This document shows, in pieces, positions 20,118-26,999 of a stretch of 64,000 nucleotides of DNA. The position numbers and the translations under genes were made by a program. Under the pieces are notes generated by a model. That model ran no database searches. It was not told the origin of the DNA and saw nothing but the letters and a program-made list of their open reading frames with translations. Position 1 is the stretch's first letter, and every line of letters starts with the position of its first letter. Source of the stretch: an uncultured Sphingomonadales bacterium (GTDB lineage: Bacteria > Pseudomonadota > Alphaproteobacteria > Sphingomonadales > Sphingomonadaceae). The stretch spans positions 1 to 64,000 of the forward strand of contig CAIJLW010000086.1 in the NCBI GenBank assembly GCA_903821685.1, given 5' to 3'.

Positions 20118-21317
20118 ATGGAAATTACCGAAGAGATTATCAGGGTTGCCGCACGCGGCGACGGTGTAACCGCAAATGGGCGTTATGTGGCGCTTGCGGC
20201 TCCTGGCGACAGTGTAGATCCATCCGGCGGCCTTATCCACGGCCCCCATCATGTGCCCCCACCATGCCAGCATTTTCCTTTATGTGGTGGTTGCCAATTA
20301 CAGCATCTAGACGAAGACAGCCTGCGACTGTTCATTGCCGAGCGTGTCACGCATGCTCTGGCCACGCAGCAGGTCGAGATCGGCGAGGTGATGCCTGTTC
20401 ATCTATCGCCGCCAAAAACCCGCCGTCGCATTGCGGTCCGTTCAGCTTGGGCTGGCAAGCAATTTCAGTTGGGTTTCAGTACCGAAAAAAGTCATCGCAT
20501 CATTGACGTCAGGCAATGTGACGTCATGGCGTCAGAGTTGTTTGCGTTGCTTGTGCCAATTCGGACATTACTTGAGCCACGGCTAAACCGTGCGCGTCAG
20601 GTGCAAATTAAATTGGCGATGGTTGACCAGGGCGTTGACGTTCTCATCGAAAACTGGATTGCAAATGATCTCGATACGCATGAATTGCTGTCCGAATTTG
20701 CCAAAACCCACAATCTCGCGCGGCTGTCGCTTGATGAAGGTTATGGCCCTGTTCCGTTTTATGAGCCTGAGCCCGTGACTGTAACGCTTGGCGGAGTTGC
20801 TGTCGGGTATCAGCCTTATGGCTTCCTTCAGGCCACCGTCGACGGCGAGGCTGCGTTGGTGAACGCCGTAAAAGAAATCGTCGGCAGCGATACTATCATC
20901 GCAGACCTTTTTGCTGGGTCAGGAACTTTTGCGCTGTCGATGGGTGCAGGTCGGAAGATTTATGCCGGTGAGGCCGATCTTCAGGCGAGCCTTGCTTTAA
21001 AGGCTGCTGCCGGGCGCAGTGGCAGGACGATATTTGCCGAACATAGAGATCTGTTCCGGCGGCCATTGACGCCTGAGGAATTGAATAAATTTCAGACTGT
21101 AGTCCTTGATCCGCCTCGTGCGGGCGCGAAGGAACAGGTTGCGCAACTTGCAGCGTCTAACGTGGCAAATATTGCCTATGTCAGTTGTAACCCAGCGAGC
21201 TTTGCGCGCGACGCCAAAACGCTGGTGGCCGCTGGATACAGGTTGCAGCGGATATGGCCCGTAGGACAATTTCGCTGGTCAACCCATATCGAGCTGGTTG
21301 GGCATTTTAGCCGTTAG
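20118..21317 (+). CDS. 23S rRNA (uracil-5-)-methyltransferase RumA/RlmD family
   Basis: SAM-dependent RNA m5U methyltransferase with an iron-sulfur cluster. The 399-residue product has an N-terminal TRAM domain (about 1-45, IIRVAARGDGVT and APGDSV), a cluster-binding cysteine set in CQHFPLCGGC plus a later Cys near 135, the SAM-binding LFAGSGTFALSMG, the DPPRAGAK motif, and the catalytic Cys in YVSCNPASFARD. Which uridine is modified cannot be fixed. ATG 20118 opens the TRAM domain; an in-frame TTG at 20088 is less likely. The stop overlaps the stop of the convergent MAPEG gene by 3 bases. Confidence 0.92.
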   Translation: MEITEEIIRVAARGDGVTANGRYVALAAPGDSVDPSGGLIHGPHHVPPPCQHFPLCGGCQLQHLDEDSLRLFIAERVTHALATQQVEIGEVMPVHLSPPKTRRRIAVRSAWAGKQFQLGFSTEKSHRIIDVRQCDVMASELFALLVPIRTLLEPRLNRARQVQIKLAMVDQGVDVLIENWIANDLDTHELLSEFAKTHNLARLSLDEGYGPVPFYEPEPVTVTLGGVAVGYQPYGFLQATVDGEAALVNAVKEIVGSDTIIADLFAGSGTFALSMGAGRKIYAGEADLQASLALKAAAGRSGRTIFAEHRDLFRRPLTPEELNKFQTVVLDPPRAGAKEQVAQLAASNVANIAYVSCNPASFARDAKTLVAAGYRLQRIWPVGQFRWSTHIELVGHFSR

Positions 21318-21757
21318 TTTAACAGCACCGCCATTACGGCATGTACTACAAGCATTATGAGCGCCAATGATGACAATGCAAACAGTGCAAAGCGGATAAC
21401 AACGCGGTTAGACAATATTTGAACGAGGCTGTGCGCCACACGTAGACCGACATAAACCCACGCAATGGTTGCATTCAGATTGTCGCCCTGACCTACCAAG
21501 GCAAGTGTCAAACATACTGCATAAAATACCGTAGGTGCTTCATGTAAGTGATTGTAATTATCTGCAACCCACGAAGCTTTTTCTTCGCCTTTAGCTATAA
21601 GAGCATCGCGCAAAGCTCCGCTCGAGGAACCAACAATTTTCGTTCCGTCAATCCCGGCGCGGTTCATGGCAGGTATGCGCGTGGCATACATCCATATCCA
21701 GATAATCATTGTCCATGCCGCAAGCGCGACGACTGGTCCTAAAATACTACTTTCCAT
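21314..21757 (-). CDS. MAPEG family membrane protein (distal copy)
   Basis: Small integral membrane protein of the eicosanoid/glutathione-metabolism (MAPEG) superfamily. The 147-residue product has four predicted helices (about 5-25, 65-85, 90-108, 122-145) and the family segment NYNHLHEAPTVFYA before helix 2, which carries the glutathione-site-like Asn and Glu. ATG 21757 follows a GGGGGA; in-frame codons further upstream overlap the previous gene and lack a membrane pattern. It lies 11 bases after a related MAPEG gene and is convergent with the RNA methyltransferase. Substrate is unknown. Confidence 0.85.
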   Translation of the reverse strand: MESSILGPVVALAAWTMIIWIWMYATRIPAMNRAGIDGTKIVGSSSGALRDALIAKGEEKASWVADNYNHLHEAPTVFYAVCLTLALVGQGDNLNATIAWVYVGLRVAHSLVQILSNRVVIRFALFALSSLALIMLVVHAVMAVLLN

Positions 21758-21768
21758 AAAATTCCCCC

Positions 21769-22197
21769 TTAAATAGTTGCGATCAAAGCCTGTATTGCCA
21801 AGATCGTTAGGCAAAGTGTTGATAATAAAAAGAACATGAAGCGGATGCTGACGGTATTAACCGTTGCCTGCCAGATGCTGTGAATGACACGTAGAACGGT
21901 GTAGCCCCATGCCAACGCGACCGACAGGTCCGTCGCTCCACCTGAAAGCGCCAATATCATAATGGTGGCGTAGAATATTGTCGGCTGTTCCATAAGATGC
22001 GCGTAATTGTGCGACTTCCACGCCACTGATGGCGGCACATTGGGGTCAATGTCTTGGCCTCGCCCACCCGGCGCAGCCTGTTTGAGATCCATACCGATCT
22101 TTGACATGGCAGGAAGGCGTGTACCCGCCATCCAGAACAACATTATGATTGACCAGACCACCAACGCGGCTGCTGGCGCCAATATATCCGTATTCAT
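21769..22197 (-). CDS. MAPEG family membrane protein (proximal copy)
   Basis: The 142-residue four-helix MAPEG protein has NYAHLMEQPTIFYA at the same place as its neighbour's motif, so the pair probably arose by tandem duplication, now well diverged. It carries an extra hydrophilic stretch with GGRGQDIDPNVPP (about 44-57). ATG 22197 is preceded by GGGGAGGG, but that Shine-Dalgarno is one arm of a perfect 8-bp hairpin followed by seven T. Expression may thus depend on read-through from odc and opening of that hairpin. Function is unknown; glutathione-linked or lipid roles are possible. Confidence 0.85.
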   Translation of the reverse strand: MNTDILAPAAALVVWSIIMLFWMAGTRLPAMSKIGMDLKQAAPGGRGQDIDPNVPPSVAWKSHNYAHLMEQPTIFYATIMILALSGGATDLSVALAWGYTVLRVIHSIWQATVNTVSIRFMFFLLSTLCLTILAIQALIATI

Positions 22198-22198
22198 G

Positions 22199-22231
22199 AA
22201 AAAAACCCTCCCCGTCGACTGATGGGGAGGG
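22199..22231 (-). terminator. odc terminator hairpin that also contains the MAPEG Shine-Dalgarno
   Basis: On the minus strand CCCTCCCC (22231-22224) and GGGGAGGG (22213-22206) pair perfectly over 8 bp around a 10-base loop, and seven T follow at once (22205-22199). That is a textbook rho-independent terminator 33 bases after the odc stop. The GGGGAGGG arm is the only Shine-Dalgarno for the MAPEG start codon at 22197, only 8 bases beyond the stem. Confidence 0.8.
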
Positions 22232-22263
22232 TGGTGCAGCTCTGGTAAATTGTCAAATGTAAC

Positions 22264-23469
22264 TTAGATTTTTGAGCTTTGTGAACGCTTTGCGCGGACC
22301 CCTGCGTCATTGGCTGGTGCCCAACCGTAAAGTGTGGCCATCGGCTGATCCTCAACGATAAGCGTTTCGGTTTCACCAAAGCCGTTAAACTCGGTACGCA
22401 TCGCGCAGCCATACGCGCCGATCATGCCAACTTCGATATAATCACCAGCTTGCACGTCATCAGGCAAGATGAACGGCCCTGCCATATGGTCCATATCGTC
22501 GCAGGTGGGCCCGTAGAAGCTGAATTCAGCCATCTGAGTACCAATTGAGGTCTCGGACCGCTGAAGGGCCACAGGGAAGCGCCAGCCGATATGTGCAGCA
22601 TCAAATAAGGAACCATAAGCGCCGTCGTTGATAAACAACTCTTTTCCGCGACGCTTCTCAACCTTCACCAATAACGACGCATATTCAGCGCATAATGCAC
22701 GGCCCGGTTCGCACCAAAGCTCCGCGGAGTAGCTGATCGGCAGGTCTTCAAAGCAGTTGTGAATGACGTCGAAATAGCCCTCAAGCGGCGGCGGCTCCAT
22801 TCCGGGGTAGACGGACGGAAACCCACCACCGATATCAACGATATCAACGGTAACAGAAGCCTCGACAATCGCGGCGCGGACATGCTCCATAGCCTCGGCA
22901 TAAGCGGTTGGCGCCATGGCTTGGCTACCTACATGAAAGCAGATCCCAAGGCTGTCTGCGACTTGACGCGTGGCAACCAGCAAGTCTGCGACTTCAGACG
23001 GATCAGTACCGAACTTTGAGGCAAGGCTCAACTTTGCGTGGTCGGAAGAGACGCGAATGCGCACGCACAATTCAAGATCTGTCGCGCCATTTGTGGCGCG
23101 CACGATCTTTTCCAGCTCGTCATGACTGTCGAGGCTGAATGTGCGAACATTATGGTTGTGATATGCCTGCGCGATAGCGCGCTCGCTTTTGACTGGGTGC
23201 ATGAAGCAAAGCTTCGCATCGGGGAGGAATTTGTGGACCAACCGCACTTCGCCCAGGGATGCAACGTCATAATGCGTTATGCCAGCTTCCCAAAGGGTCT
23301 CAAGCAGTGCAGGCGATGGATTGGCTTTTACGGCATAAAGCGACTGGCCCTGAAACTTCTCAACGAAGAAACGGGCAGCGCGCGTAGCGGCGTGCGGGCG
23401 GATTAGCGTGATTGGTTCGTCCGGGCGAAGCGCGCGGACTACAGCAAGTGCGTCAGTGTTCTCGTACAA
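22264..23469 (-). CDS. Ornithine decarboxylase-like PLP enzyme (fold III)
   Basis: Decarboxylates ornithine (or a related amino acid) to putrescine in the cytosol. The 401-residue product is of the alanine-racemase-fold group: PLP Lys in LYAVKANPSP near 47, the GGGFPS phosphate loop near 215, CEPGRAL near 255, and the catalytic Cys in YGPTCDDMD near 325. Start is uncertain. TTG 23469 has GGGGG upstream and gives the usual N-terminus before ALAVVRALRPDEP; TTG 23505 with AAGG is the alternative. Position after the two carboxyspermidine genes supports a polyamine role over diaminopimelate decarboxylation. Confidence 0.88.
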   Translation of the reverse strand: MYENTDALAVVRALRPDEPITLIRPHAATRAARFFVEKFQGQSLYAVKANPSPALLETLWEAGITHYDVASLGEVRLVHKFLPDAKLCFMHPVKSERAIAQAYHNHNVRTFSLDSHDELEKIVRATNGATDLELCVRIRVSSDHAKLSLASKFGTDPSEVADLLVATRQVADSLGICFHVGSQAMAPTAYAEAMEHVRAAIVEASVTVDIVDIGGGFPSVYPGMEPPPLEGYFDVIHNCFEDLPISYSAELWCEPGRALCAEYASLLVKVEKRRGKELFINDGAYGSLFDAAHIGWRFPVALQRSETSIGTQMAEFSFYGPTCDDMDHMAGPFILPDDVQAGDYIEVGMIGAYGCAMRTEFNGFGETETLIVEDQPMATLYGWAPANDAGVRAKRSQSSKI

Positions 23470-23595
23470 TTCAAGGGACCCCCAAAAGATGATATAAAAC
23501 AACAAGGCTGCCTTGCGGTTATTGGAAGTCCCCCTGGGGCAGCGGACGTGCGCATTATCAAAAATTGGTGGGTTGTAAAGTGATTCGTTCGGGTT

Positions 23596-24750
23596 TTAGC
23601 TCAGCCGGTCCCTAAACTCGGTCCACTCGAATGTACGGACGCATTCGAGCGTGTCTGTCTCGCTATTCCAGAGCCAGAGTGAGGGCAAAGGCACTCCGTT
23701 AAAGGTGTTCGTTTTTACCATCGAATAATGCGCTTGATCCAGAAATGCGAAGCGTGCTCCAGGCTCTGCAGGAACGGGAAGAACATAATCTCCTATAATG
23801 TCTCCAGCTAGGCAGGATGGCCCTCCTAGACGCACTGGAGTGCCTTCCGAGCGCTCTGCGAGCATTGCCGGGCGATAGGGTGCCTCGATCACGTCAGGCA
23901 TATGGCAGGTGGCACTAATATCAGTGATGCCGACCTGAATACCGTTCTCGAAAACATCGAGCAGTTCACCGATCAGTATCCCTGCATCAAGTGCAATCGC
24001 TTCACCAGGTTCAAGATAGACATCCAAACCCGTTTCTGCGCGTACATCTTTGATGAATGCGATAAGTTCGTCGCGCTGGTAATCTGCGCGCGTAATATGG
24101 TGGCCGCCACCAAAGTTCAGCCAGCGCAGTTGCCCGAAATAAGGAGCGATATGCGGCTTCAGTGCTTCCCATGTGCGCTTCAGCGGTTCGAAGTCTTGTT
24201 CGCACAGGCTGTGAAAATGAAGGCCCGAAACGCCTTCGATATGTTCTGCCTTTAACTGACTGATCGGAAAACCAAGCCGCGAACCCGGTGAGCAGGGGTC
24301 GTATTTAGGGACTTCGCCTTCCGCATGTTCGGGGTTAATCCGAAGGCCAACATCCACGCTATCATTCAGGAACGACACAAAGCGCCGATGCTGATGCGGA
24401 CTGTTAAAAATGACATGATCGGATATTTCGACGATCTCGGCCATGTCAGATTCTTTATAACCAGCACAATAGGTCGCGATTTCGCCCCTGTAATAATCTC
24501 GCGCGAGACGCGATTCCCAGAGGCCAGAACTGCATACGCCATCAAGATATTCGCCAATGATAGGCGCCACTTTCCACATGGAAAATGCCTTCATCGCACA
24601 CAATATCTTAGCACCGGACCGCTGTTTTACATCGGCCAATATGGAAAGGTTCCGCCGCAACGCAGCCTCATCCACCACAAAGGCCGGCGACGGCACGCGA
24701 TAAAGGTTAAAATGGGCAAAAGCTCCCGGATCGCCTGCTTTGGTTTCCAT
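23596..24750 (-). CDS. nspC: Carboxynorspermidine/carboxyspermidine decarboxylase
   Basis: PLP enzyme that decarboxylates carboxyspermidine (or carboxynorspermidine) to the triamine. The 384-residue product has PSPAFVVDEAALRRNL at the N-terminus, PLP Lys in LCAMKAFS near 54, the GLHFHSLCEQ segment near 196, LNFGGGHH near 232, EPGEAI near 265, and GPSCLAGD near 330. Its ATG overlaps the stop of the dehydrogenase gene by one base (TAATG), so the two consecutive pathway enzymes are coupled. Spermidine is the likelier product in an alphaproteobacterium making putrescine, but sequence cannot separate the two. Confidence 0.93.
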   Translation of the reverse strand: METKAGDPGAFAHFNLYRVPSPAFVVDEAALRRNLSILADVKQRSGAKILCAMKAFSMWKVAPIIGEYLDGVCSSGLWESRLARDYYRGEIATYCAGYKESDMAEIVEISDHVIFNSPHQHRRFVSFLNDSVDVGLRINPEHAEGEVPKYDPCSPGSRLGFPISQLKAEHIEGVSGLHFHSLCEQDFEPLKRTWEALKPHIAPYFGQLRWLNFGGGHHITRADYQRDELIAFIKDVRAETGLDVYLEPGEAIALDAGILIGELLDVFENGIQVGITDISATCHMPDVIEAPYRPAMLAERSEGTPVRLGGPSCLAGDIIGDYVLPVPAEPGARFAFLDQAHYSMVKTNTFNGVPLPSLWLWNSETDTLECVRTFEWTEFRDRLS

Positions 24751-25958
24751 TAGAACTGCAGCGGCCCATCAAGTTCCTTCACTTGCCAAGGGAGACCATG
24801 CAAATTGAGCATGTCCATGAATGGATCGGGGTCGAACTGTTCAATGTTCCACACGCCAGAGCCGGACCATTTGCCAGTTACCAACATCGCCGCGCCAATC
24901 ATCGCTGGTACCCCGGTGGTATAGCTGACAGCTTGGTTGCCGGTTTCGGCATACGCATCTTCATGGTCGCAGATATTGTAAATGTAGAGCGTCTTTTCCT
25001 TGCCATCCTTGCCAACGCCAGTGGCGATACAGCCAATGTTGGTCTTGCCCTTGGTCGTTGGACCAAGCGAAGCGGGTTCAGGCAACACAGCCTTCAGAAA
25101 CTGAAGCGGGACGATTTCCTTGCCTTCATACATCACAGGGTCGATACGAGTCATGCCGACCGCCTGAAGTACGTTCAGGTGGGTGATATAGGCGTCGCCA
25201 AAGGTCATCCAGAACCGAATGCGCTTGATTTCTGGTAGATGGGTTTTGAGGCTTTCGATTTCCTCATGATACATTAGATACATATTCTTCGGGCCGACCG
25301 CTTCAAAGTCGAAGCTTTGTTTCACTGACATCGCTGGTGTTTCCACCCATGCGCCATTTTCCCAGTGGCGCGCGACGGCAGTAACTTCGCGGATGTTGAT
25401 TTCGGGATTGAAGTTTGTGGCAAAGGCCTGGCCATGGTCTCCGCCATTGCAGTCGAGAATATCAAGCGTGTCGATGCGGTCGAAATGATGTTTTTTCAGA
25501 TAGGTTGTAAAAACGCTGGTCACGCCGGGGTCAAAACCTGAGCCCAACAATGCCGTAAGGCCAGCATTCTTATAACGATCCTGATAAGCCCACTGCCAAT
25601 GATATTCGAACTTGGCGACATCAAGTGGTTCGTAATTTGCCGTGTCCATGTAATGAACGCCAGCAGCCAAACACGCATCCATAATGTTAAGGTCTTGGTA
25701 AGGCAAAGCAAGGTTGACGACCAAGCTTGGCTTGATTTGGTTCAGCAGCGCAGTTGTCGCGAGGACATCATCGGCATCAAGGCCATAGGTGTCGATATCA
25801 ACGCCAGTGCGATCCTTGACTGACGCTGCGATCGCGTCGCATTTCGATTTGGTGCGGCTTGCAAGGCTGATATGACTAAAAATATCCGGGTTCATAGCCA
25901 TCTTGTGGACTGCAACCGACCCGACGCCGCCAGCGCCAATTACCAATATCTTGCTCAT
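24750..25958 (-). CDS. Carboxynorspermidine/carboxyspermidine dehydrogenase (saccharopine dehydrogenase family)
   Basis: Condenses aspartate semialdehyde with putrescine (or diaminopropane) and reduces the imine with NADPH. The 402-residue product begins MSKILVIGAGGVGSVAVHKM, a Rossmann motif, with NLALPYQDLNIMDACL near 95 and the family's LLGSGFDPGVTSVF near 150. ATG 25958 follows GAGGAAA; upstream in-frame codons overlap the divergent gene's region. It is first of the dehydrogenase-nspC-odc-MAPEG minus-strand cluster and diverges from a dehydratase with a 54-base gap. The cluster makes a polyamine role much likelier than lysine metabolism. Confidence 0.93.
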   Translation of the reverse strand: MSKILVIGAGGVGSVAVHKMAMNPDIFSHISLASRTKSKCDAIAASVKDRTGVDIDTYGLDADDVLATTALLNQIKPSLVVNLALPYQDLNIMDACLAAGVHYMDTANYEPLDVAKFEYHWQWAYQDRYKNAGLTALLGSGFDPGVTSVFTTYLKKHHFDRIDTLDILDCNGGDHGQAFATNFNPEINIREVTAVARHWENGAWVETPAMSVKQSFDFEAVGPKNMYLMYHEEIESLKTHLPEIKRIRFWMTFGDAYITHLNVLQAVGMTRIDPVMYEGKEIVPLQFLKAVLPEPASLGPTTKGKTNIGCIATGVGKDGKEKTLYIYNICDHEDAYAETGNQAVSYTTGVPAMIGAAMLVTGKWSGSGVWNIEQFDPDPFMDMLNLHGLPWQVKELDGPLQF

Positions 25959-26012
25959 CTGCAGTTTCCTCTTATCAGAGATTCGTTCAGCGCACGCATA
26001 TAGGGGCCTTTT

Positions 26013-26999
26013 ATGACAGGACAAGAATTGGCTGCGGCCATCAAGACGCCAACGCACGAAGGTGTGCAGCGGGCTATGACCAAAATTGCCGATATTCTGC
26101 CCAAGACACCGTTATTGCCGCTTGAGGTGGATGGCGTAACGCTTTGGTGCAAGGCCGAAATGCTACAACCCGTCGGCGCGTTTAAGATACGCGGCGCTTG
26201 GCATCGACTGTCCGATCTGAATGAAGAAGAATGCGCACGTGGCGTTGTTGGCGTGTCCAGTGGAAACCACGCCCAAGGCGTGGCGTGGGCGGCAAAGAAG
26301 CTTGGTATAGCCGCTACAATCGTCATGCCGTCCAATGCGCCGCAAATGAAACTGGAAGCTACAAAAGCACTGGGTGCTCAGGTTGTGCTGTACGACCGTG
26401 CGACTGAATCGCGTGATGAAGTTGCCGCCGGTTTGATCGCCCAAAATGGGGCGGCGCTGGTGCATGCCTTTGGTGATCCATGGGTCATTGAAGGGCAGGG
26501 TACTGCTGGTATTGAAATCGCAGAGCAGCTTGCAGCGTTTGGTTTGGGCGGTCCCGATATGATTGTCTCGTGCTGCGGCGGGGGTGGTCTGGCCTCCGGT
26601 CTAGCGTTGGCCTGTCCCGACGCAGACATTGCGATCGTTGAGCCCGAAGGCTGGGACGACATCATACGGTCGCTTGAGGCAGGCGAAATCCTACCCGTAA
26701 AAGACCTGACGCACCCAACCTATTGCGACGCACTGCAAACGCCGCAAACTTATCCTGTTAATTTTGAGATATTGCGCCGTCGCGTCTCCAACGGAGTGTC
26801 TGTTACAACGGACGAAGTCGTAACAGCCATGCGTGTGGTCTTTGAAAAGCTGCACCTGGTCGTTGAACCCGGCGGGGCAGTGGCGCTTGCTGCTGTGATT
26901 GCTGGTAAAATTCAACCGAAGGGCAACACCGCGATTACGCTGTCAGGCGGAAATGTCGATCTAAACGTATTTATGAAGTTACTTTCTCAAGCTGCCTGA
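26013..26999 (+). CDS. Threonine/serine dehydratase-like PLP enzyme
   Basis: Fold type II PLP enzyme that likely deaminates threonine or serine. The 328-residue product has the Schiff-base Lys58 in VGAFKIRGA, the [10 protein letters not shown] loop near 83, and the phosphate-binding CCGGGG near 188. It lacks the C-terminal ACT-like regulatory domain of biosynthetic IlvA, so it is of the catabolic/serine-racemase size. AGGGG lies upstream of ATG 26013. It diverges from the carboxyspermidine dehydrogenase gene, and its 3' end overlaps convergent hemA by 13 bases. Exact substrate is open. Confidence 0.88.

Follow-up and report, generated by a model that had tools for sequence, protein, structure and literature searches.

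A predicted hairpin that masks the Shine-Dalgarno sequence of a MAPEG gene and overlaps its candidate promoter in Sphingomonadaceae

Introduction

Why should a hairpin that resembles the transcription terminator of one gene be built from the Shine-Dalgarno (SD) sequence of the next? This question is raised by a locus in the DNA of an uncultured Sphingomonadales bacterium, of which we analyzed a stretch of 64,000 nucleotides (contig CAIJLW010000086.1, positions 1 to 64,000; hereafter called the window) from a genome of 2.12 Mb in 148 contigs. The hairpin lies downstream of an ornithine/lysine-decarboxylase-like gene, odc, and upstream of two MAPEG genes. Tightly packed bacterial genes need boundaries, and if the reading favored below is correct, this hairpin would be a compact natural boundary part. 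No description of this locus was found among the titles and the beginnings of abstracts covered by our literature search, a statement that is confined to those texts.

Results and Discussion

Architecture of the locus

The odc gene, the hairpin and both MAPEG genes are on the minus strand. The upstream gene, odc (predicted span 22264..23505), is recognized by the Pfam model Orn_Arg_deC_N (E 1.2e-34), and the closest solved match of its product is the lysine/ornithine decarboxylase 5gjm (6e-48). Its stop codon, TAA (22266-22264), is followed by 32 nt and then by the hairpin, whose left or anti-SD arm CCCTCCCC (22231-22224; delineated by sequence, folding and covariation) is separated by a 10-nt loop (22223-22214) from the right arm GGGGAGGG (22213-22206; delineated by sequence and folding), which holds the SD sequence GGAGG (22211-22207). 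The stem comprises 9 bp when the closing A-U pair (A22232 with T22205) is counted, and folding also permits TC/GA pairing within the loop. A T7 tract (22205-22199), the predicted intrinsic-terminator tail for odc transcripts, comes next, and a single C separates it from the ATG (22197) of MAPEG1. A check of the sequence confirmed that the stem, the T7 tract and the MAPEG ATG are placed as an earlier note on this DNA had described.

MAPEG1 (21769..22197; Pfam MAPEG, PF01124, E 1.8e-27) is the gene whose SD is predicted to be masked, and alignments of its relatives begin mostly at residues 1-5. The second gene downstream of the hairpin, MAPEG2 (21314..21757), has its own SD, AAGGGGG, which folding predicts to be open (opening cost 1.0 kcal/mol). 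The closest MAPEG1 sequences come from loci that, where a genus name is given, are mostly labelled Sphingorhabdus.

Also upstream of the hairpin, at 23596-26057, are carboxynorspermidine decarboxylase-like and synthase-like genes. Their scores fall below the NCBIfam equivalog cut-offs (389.9 vs 409.05 and 423.9 vs 800). A threonine-dehydratase-like gene (26013-26999) points away from the polyamine genes in the window.

Predicted masking of the Shine-Dalgarno sequence

When RNA that reads through from odc is folded with 130 nt of upstream context, opening of the MAPEG1 SD is predicted to cost 15.6 kcal/mol, and seven 5′ ends, placed at 22231 or farther upstream, gave costs between 15.6 and 17.9 kcal/mol. 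This is beyond what chance would give. As a background we used 227 ORFs that have an SD and encode 200 aa or more, drawn from 164 kb of the window's own contig and 300 kb of a congener, whose starts were picked by rule and are uncurated; this set gave a median cost of 3.5 kcal/mol (95th percentile 8.5, 99th percentile 10.4), with 3/227 at 10 or more and 0/227 at 13.7 or more. Folding of the RNA from 22263 to 22160 gave z = -2.55, and the shorter RNA 22263-22175 only z = -1.63. For each of these two RNAs the minimum-energy structure includes the same hairpin, and the SD has no rival pairing there. By folding, therefore, the SD is predicted to be sequestered in upstream transcripts, as in SD hairpins of the phage T4 gene e type. 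The earlier proposal that the SD is masked in transcripts coming from odc is thus supported by prediction, and also by the comparisons presented below. Rfam returned no match up to E = 1 in 21000-25000, and a riboswitch or known leader family was rejected on that basis.

A candidate promoter running through the hairpin

The search covered 80 relatives and gave a match in 64, including 42 of 44 congeners. Our genus set comprises 42 of 43 loci, L012 having been dropped for its short upstream sequence (53 nt); L002, a second view of the window's own locus, was not counted. A second set holds 64 other family loci with 41 genus codes, which derive from 60 of 100 family genomes with a match, chosen as the best-scoring of those not already included, plus four more; L049-L051, from another family, were excluded from the family comparison. 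A third set consists of 43 further loci, these being the new ones among 77 usable of 80.

Directly 3′ of the odc stop is a conserved box, GTTACATTTGACAATTTA (22246..22263), which was examined by genome pattern matching. With up to two mismatches it matches 0-4 times per genome in 13 genomes (0-1 for the reversed pattern used as a control), and a match precedes MAPEG1 in the window's genome as well as in 6 of the 8 congeners. The region upstream of MAPEG1 carries GTTRCRWTTGACAATYTA or a close variant, with CANNNT 17 nt after TTGACA. As a separate matter, the box GTTRCRWTTGACAATYTA extends beyond the -35 and is more conserved in the genus than a normal -35, and a regulator of the MAPEG genes may act at the GTTGC that precedes the -35.

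The predicted -35, TTGACA (22251..22256), is invariant in the 36 genus loci that were aligned out of 41 distinct ones (L026, L044, L046, L047 and L048 were left out, and L037 had been removed as a duplicate); L044 has TTAACA in its place. The predicted -10 of this candidate promoter, CACCCT (22228..22233), follows after 17 nt and lies mostly within the left arm. Of its six bases, only the first is outside the hairpin, the other five being the closing A and the outer part of the left arm. With a 6-nt discriminator, our promoter rule puts the transcription start at 22221, which is in the loop.

Our first promoter rule favored 17-nt spacers and A/T at -11/-7, and its logos lean likewise. Because of this leaning, a spacer test without any spacer choice was run, in which spacers from 12 to 22 nt were scored at loci where TTGAC occurs once. 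Such a lone TTGAC, at -75..-35, is present at 38/42 genus loci and 53/64 other family loci; it is absent from 1/42 genus, 7/64 other family and 5/43 further loci, and several are present at 3, 4 and 0, respectively. At exactly 17 nt, an A occupies -11 at 38/38 genus loci, 48/53 loci of other genera and 38/38 further loci, compared with at most 31/38 (14 nt, genus), 14/53 and 15/38 at other spacers. When T at -7 is also required, the counts are 34, 35 and 34 at 17 nt versus at most 1, 4 and 1 elsewhere. TTGACA lies 47-62 nt before the ATG in genus loci, and the element keeps its distance to MAPEG rather than to odc, since it is present where odc is 183 nt away (L032) and where no odc was found upstream (L024, L038 and others).

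Mapped starts in Zymomonas are described as having mostly 17-nt spacers, 6-nt discriminators and -10 elements without a fixed T at -7 (PMC7566282), and more than 80% of Novosphingobium sigma-70 promoters are described as having no -7 T (PMC8407463). Mapped transcription starts have also been published for N. aromaticivorans (PMC7471390). What speaks against a promoter is that CACCCT is far from TATAAT, and its C at -12 departs from the TANNNN given for Zymomonas (PMC7566282). Judged from the sequence comparisons, the MAPEG promoter is nonetheless very probably real. The candidate -35 and -10 are conserved and stand where a local promoter encoded in the 5′ arm would be expected to have them, with a predicted start in the loop or at its edge, and it is probable, albeit with somewhat less assurance, that transcription of MAPEG begins in the loop.

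Predicted fates of read-through and locally initiated RNA

With the predicted start in the loop, the gene's own mRNA would be made without the left arm, which would leave its SD unmasked. In folded RNA that begins at 22221, the SD opens at a cost of 2.7 kcal/mol; nine start positions between 22225 and 22216 were tried, and each leaves the SD free at less than 3 kcal/mol. Across the genus, the median opening cost is 13.7 kcal/mol for read-through RNA (42 loci) versus 1.9 kcal/mol for own-start RNA (38 loci, highest 4.9; the latter value is not computable for L023, L026, L044 and L046). The predicted own transcript keeps only 0-4 bases of the 7- to 18-base left arm at 37/37 loci that have both a cost of at least 7 kcal/mol and a 17-nt promoter. 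Three hairpin loci are without a 17-nt promoter under the first rule (L007, L023 and L044), and at L023 that rule picked a second TTGAC closer to the gene. The promoter rule fails at L026 because the predicted own start there falls on the SD itself.

A promoter inside the hairpin had earlier been offered as an alternative to masking. The conserved -10, which lies in the left arm, and a start predicted in the loop favor such a promoter, but it is not necessarily an alternative. Likewise, a start within 22198-22230, which had been expected to speak against masking, is predicted to exist, and it would fit masking rather than abolish it.

From these observations, we propose that the hairpin might serve as an insulator built around the MAPEG promoter. 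Polymerase arriving from odc would transcribe both arms, the RNA would fold, and much of this transcription would stop at the T tract. In any RNA that continues past the T tract, the MAPEG1 SD would be held in a stem that costs about 16 kcal/mol to open. Polymerase that engages the MAPEG promoter, whose -10 is in left-arm DNA, would begin its RNA in the loop, and the resulting mRNA, with a leader of about 24 nt, would contain neither the left arm nor the terminator and would expose its SD. MAPEG1 output would then depend on the gene's own promoter and be protected from odc transcription. What the analysis shows directly is the sequence, its conservation, the covariation and the predicted folding; from these we infer promoter activity, start site, termination, an effect on translation and a purpose, and we hold this account as a whole to be moderately probable. 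That insulation is the purpose has a slightly better than even chance. More tentative, and perhaps somewhat short of even, is the notion of a chromosomal promoter-in-hairpin insulator in which one 26-nt element is terminator, anti-SD lock and promoter core.

The reading of the locus as coupled transcription and translation control, put forward in the earlier note, agrees with the masking and termination predicted here but is incomplete without the MAPEG promoter. The chief gap in the insulation logic is the open SD of MAPEG2. Read-through would therefore still permit MAPEG2 translation unless this gene is coupled to MAPEG1 or termination is good.

Conservation and covariation within the genus

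A stem that is not conserved in relatives would have spoken against masking. However, the stem is kept in relatives with compensatory changes. A hairpin that masks the SD (opening cost of at least 5 kcal/mol in read-through RNA) is present at 40/42 genus loci, the window included, and is absent at L046 and L048. Cultured relatives that have the hairpin include Sphingorhabdus rigui DSM 29050 and S. wooponensis (L146, L153). In 27 distinct arm-loop-arm rows, 89.4% of the cells are paired and 31 cells are changed on both sides, whereas shuffles average 11.6 (0/500 reach 31) and slid controls give at most 12; the covariation score is 0.297, compared with at most 0.148 in slid controls. These values are favored by the omission of L009, L018, L026, L032, L033 and L047, which have a different geometry. 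All 33 distinct rows, in an alignment that shifts some of them, still give 82.9% paired cells, 26 cells changed on both sides (shuffle mean 12.2, 0/500 as high; slid controls at most 14) and a covariation score of 0.223 (at most 0.167 when slid). Kinship between rows inflates all of these covariation counts, and for the 27 rows neither the number of pairs with a double change nor that of further pair types was better than in shuffles (174/500 and 444/500 as high). Pairing of the genus arms in a fixed register exceeds that of shuffled arms (0/2000 as high), and paired arm changes can be read directly among the rows, as in CCCTCCCTGT/ACAGGGAGGG, CCCTTCCAATT/AATTGGGAGGG and CCCTCCTCAAT/ATTGAGGAGGG.

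In the window, the GC-rich stem is followed immediately by a T-rich tract, as is characteristic of intrinsic terminators. The earlier claim of termination by the hairpin and T7 therefore stands as a prediction, in that T7 should terminate odc transcripts in the window's species. A terminator pattern scan did not list this hairpin because the scan allows loops of up to 8 nt and the loop here has 10. At least five T residues occur in the 8 nt after the SD arm at 26/42 genus loci, and termination at the T tract is accordingly likely both in the window and for the majority of the genus. Among the 16 genus loci with fewer than five T residues, 14 keep an opening cost of at least 7 kcal/mol. L030-L032 are examples of relatives that have no T tract. 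The T tract is less conserved than the masking hairpin, and thus masking outlasts termination and is the more constant property.

At L043, the region between odc and MAPEG contains, just before the promoter, a long and imperfect inverted repeat made up of CCAAAGAA-like units. Perhaps this is a mobile or repeat element.

Relationship to the upstream gene

Among the 64 other family loci, the median opening cost is 9.3 kcal/mol with odc upstream (n=13) versus 4.0 kcal/mol without it (n=51), and a comparison by genus code (8 vs 33) gives a one-sided p = 0.0004. The 43 further loci show medians of 15.5 (n=9) and 4.9 kcal/mol (n=34), respectively (p = 0.00025), although 6 of these 9 odc-linked loci form one Blastomonas-like group by sequence. 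When 149 rows are divided at 8.5 kcal/mol, 53 have both odc and the hairpin, 11 odc alone, 14 the hairpin alone and 71 neither, such that the hairpin accompanies 53/64 rows with odc and 14/85 without. On the MAPEG tree, odc and the hairpin yield 2 independent contrasts on well-supported branches and 11 on all branches. A tie between the masking hairpin and upstream odc is suggestive but short of established because there are too few independent lineages.

At 31/51 of the family loci without odc, a threonine-dehydratase-like match in the same orientation ends 43-121 nt upstream of MAPEG. Hence, the presence of just any co-directional neighbor is insufficient for the masking hairpin. The earlier idea of a polyamine cluster "feeding" the MAPEG genes is not supported: elsewhere in the family, MAPEG is commonly located behind the threonine-dehydratase-like gene. 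Nor is polyamine-specific control of MAPEG supported, because MAPEG genes that follow other genes have the same promoter. A rearrangement may have placed the polyamine block before MAPEG.

Fixed-register arm pairing at 12 usable odc-linked loci outside the genus was no better than in shuffles (1940/2000 as high), and both the register and the SD anchor differ there. The best outside check of the design is provided by the Blastomonas-type loci (L025, L053, L161-L163, L165, L167 and L174), which follow the same design with a different sequence, such as GCAGTTTCC...GGAAACTGC or GCAGTTTCCTCC...GGAGGAAACTGC, and have no T tract. Their opening cost is 14.4-18.1 kcal/mol, and the -10, CAGTTT, is entirely or mostly in the stem. 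This -10 differs from that of Sphingorhabdus, and the right arm differs to match. If the insulator is real, its sequence has turned over between the Sphingorhabdus and Blastomonas designs, yet the -10, the start and the anti-SD arm have continued to overlap.

Alternative explanations

Perhaps the hairpin is a plain intrinsic terminator or a 3′-stabilizing hairpin of odc that uses the SD as one arm for economy, with masking unimportant. The T7 tract and GC-rich stem of the window, the T-rich tracts at 26/42 genus loci and the company that strong hairpins keep with odc would all be explained in this way. However, the hairpin retains its strength at 14 of the 16 genus loci with few T residues, Blastomonas-type hairpins have no T tract, and the hairpin stays on the MAPEG SD where the odc stop is 118-183 nt away (L032, L078 and L089). 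We consider this explanation unlikely, although it deserves to be kept in mind, and continue to favor an insulator.

Another explanation places the start of the MAPEG mRNA ahead of the hairpin, which every copy would then contain as a conditional attenuator or thermometer that is opened by a signal. A sigma-70-like site that matches at 9 of 12 positions (22285-22256, TTCACA-18-TACATT) would give a start near 22249 and include the whole hairpin. We rejected it as the main promoter because its -10-like TACATT reads TGCATT or TGCAAT in many relatives, with loss of the key A; the conserved promoter is TTGACA-17-CANNNT. The lack of an Rfam match in 21000-25000, and the occurrence of the same hairpin in the folds of both RNAs, 22263-22160 and 22263-22175, with no competing SD pairing, also argue against a switch of this kind, which we regard as quite improbable.

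Least probable of all, and very doubtful, is that the inverted repeat is a repressor-bound DNA operator with the RNA hairpin as a by-product: operators often overlap the -10 and the start, as this repeat does, and the box beside the -35 is conserved in the genus beyond a normal -35, but a protein site would not be expected to change its arm sequences with pairing kept, to tolerate G-U pairs (7/27 rows at one pair) or to vary in inter-arm distance.

Comparison with known systems

The closest counterpart of the proposed insulator is in phage T4, where long upstream transcripts of gene e (and also of soc, 49 and I-TevI) are described as folding over the SD, and local promoters in the region of the hairpin's 5′ strand yield transcripts that are without the 5′ part and are well translated (PMC3014915). 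For gene e, the inhibitory structure in long early transcripts is reported to lower synthesis 100-fold (PMC3014915). The logic predicted here is the same, in that upstream RNA would mask the SD and RNA from a local promoter would escape. In T4, however, phage late promoters bring about temporal switching, whereas the present case involves a chromosomal gene and a sigma-70-like promoter. Also unlike the arrangement described for gene e, the -10 here is in the anti-SD arm, and a terminator tail is present in part of the genus.

In IS10, IS50 and IS200, incoming transcripts fold and hide the ribosome site of the transposase, and local transcripts do not. These are safeguards of mobile elements, whereas the genes considered here are an ordinary chromosomal pair. 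A further report concerns antisense RNA and Hfq control (PMC8450116). The rimP leader is described as having a terminator hairpin near the start codon that may include the ribosome-binding site (PMC2965389). As described, that terminator is placed in the leader of its own gene, whose transcripts read it, but here the own transcripts are predicted to be without the left arm. With intrinsic (Rho-independent) terminators, the hairpin shares a GC-rich stem and a T tract in the window's species, yet it differs from them in that, among the genus loci, the SD-masking stem is better conserved than the T tract.

Implications and divergent loci

If our interpretation is correct, an insulator with a promoter in its hairpin would allow a gene to sit behind an active operon and respond to its own promoter only. 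Because the -10 would be part of the anti-SD arm, promoter and arm could not evolve apart. It is reasonable to speculate that such insulators may arise where a gene with a transcription start near its SD moves behind a strong neighbor. A trick known from phage would thereby be extended to a chromosomal gene with broad comparative support, and the locus would offer a testable model of insulation that evolves after rearrangement, as well as an insulator design for synthetic operons.

Some loci depart from the arrangements discussed above. At L211, where odc is upstream, the SD is enclosed in a longer stem, CCCCTGTTGCGC/GCGCAACAGGGG, and the usual TTGACA promoter is missing. Four loci from metagenome-assembled genomes labelled Pseudomonadales or Gammaproteobacteria (L173, L176, L178 and L184) encode a MAPEG protein that is 60-63% identical over the best segment, and they have a different leader with a mostly open AAAAGGAA SD region.
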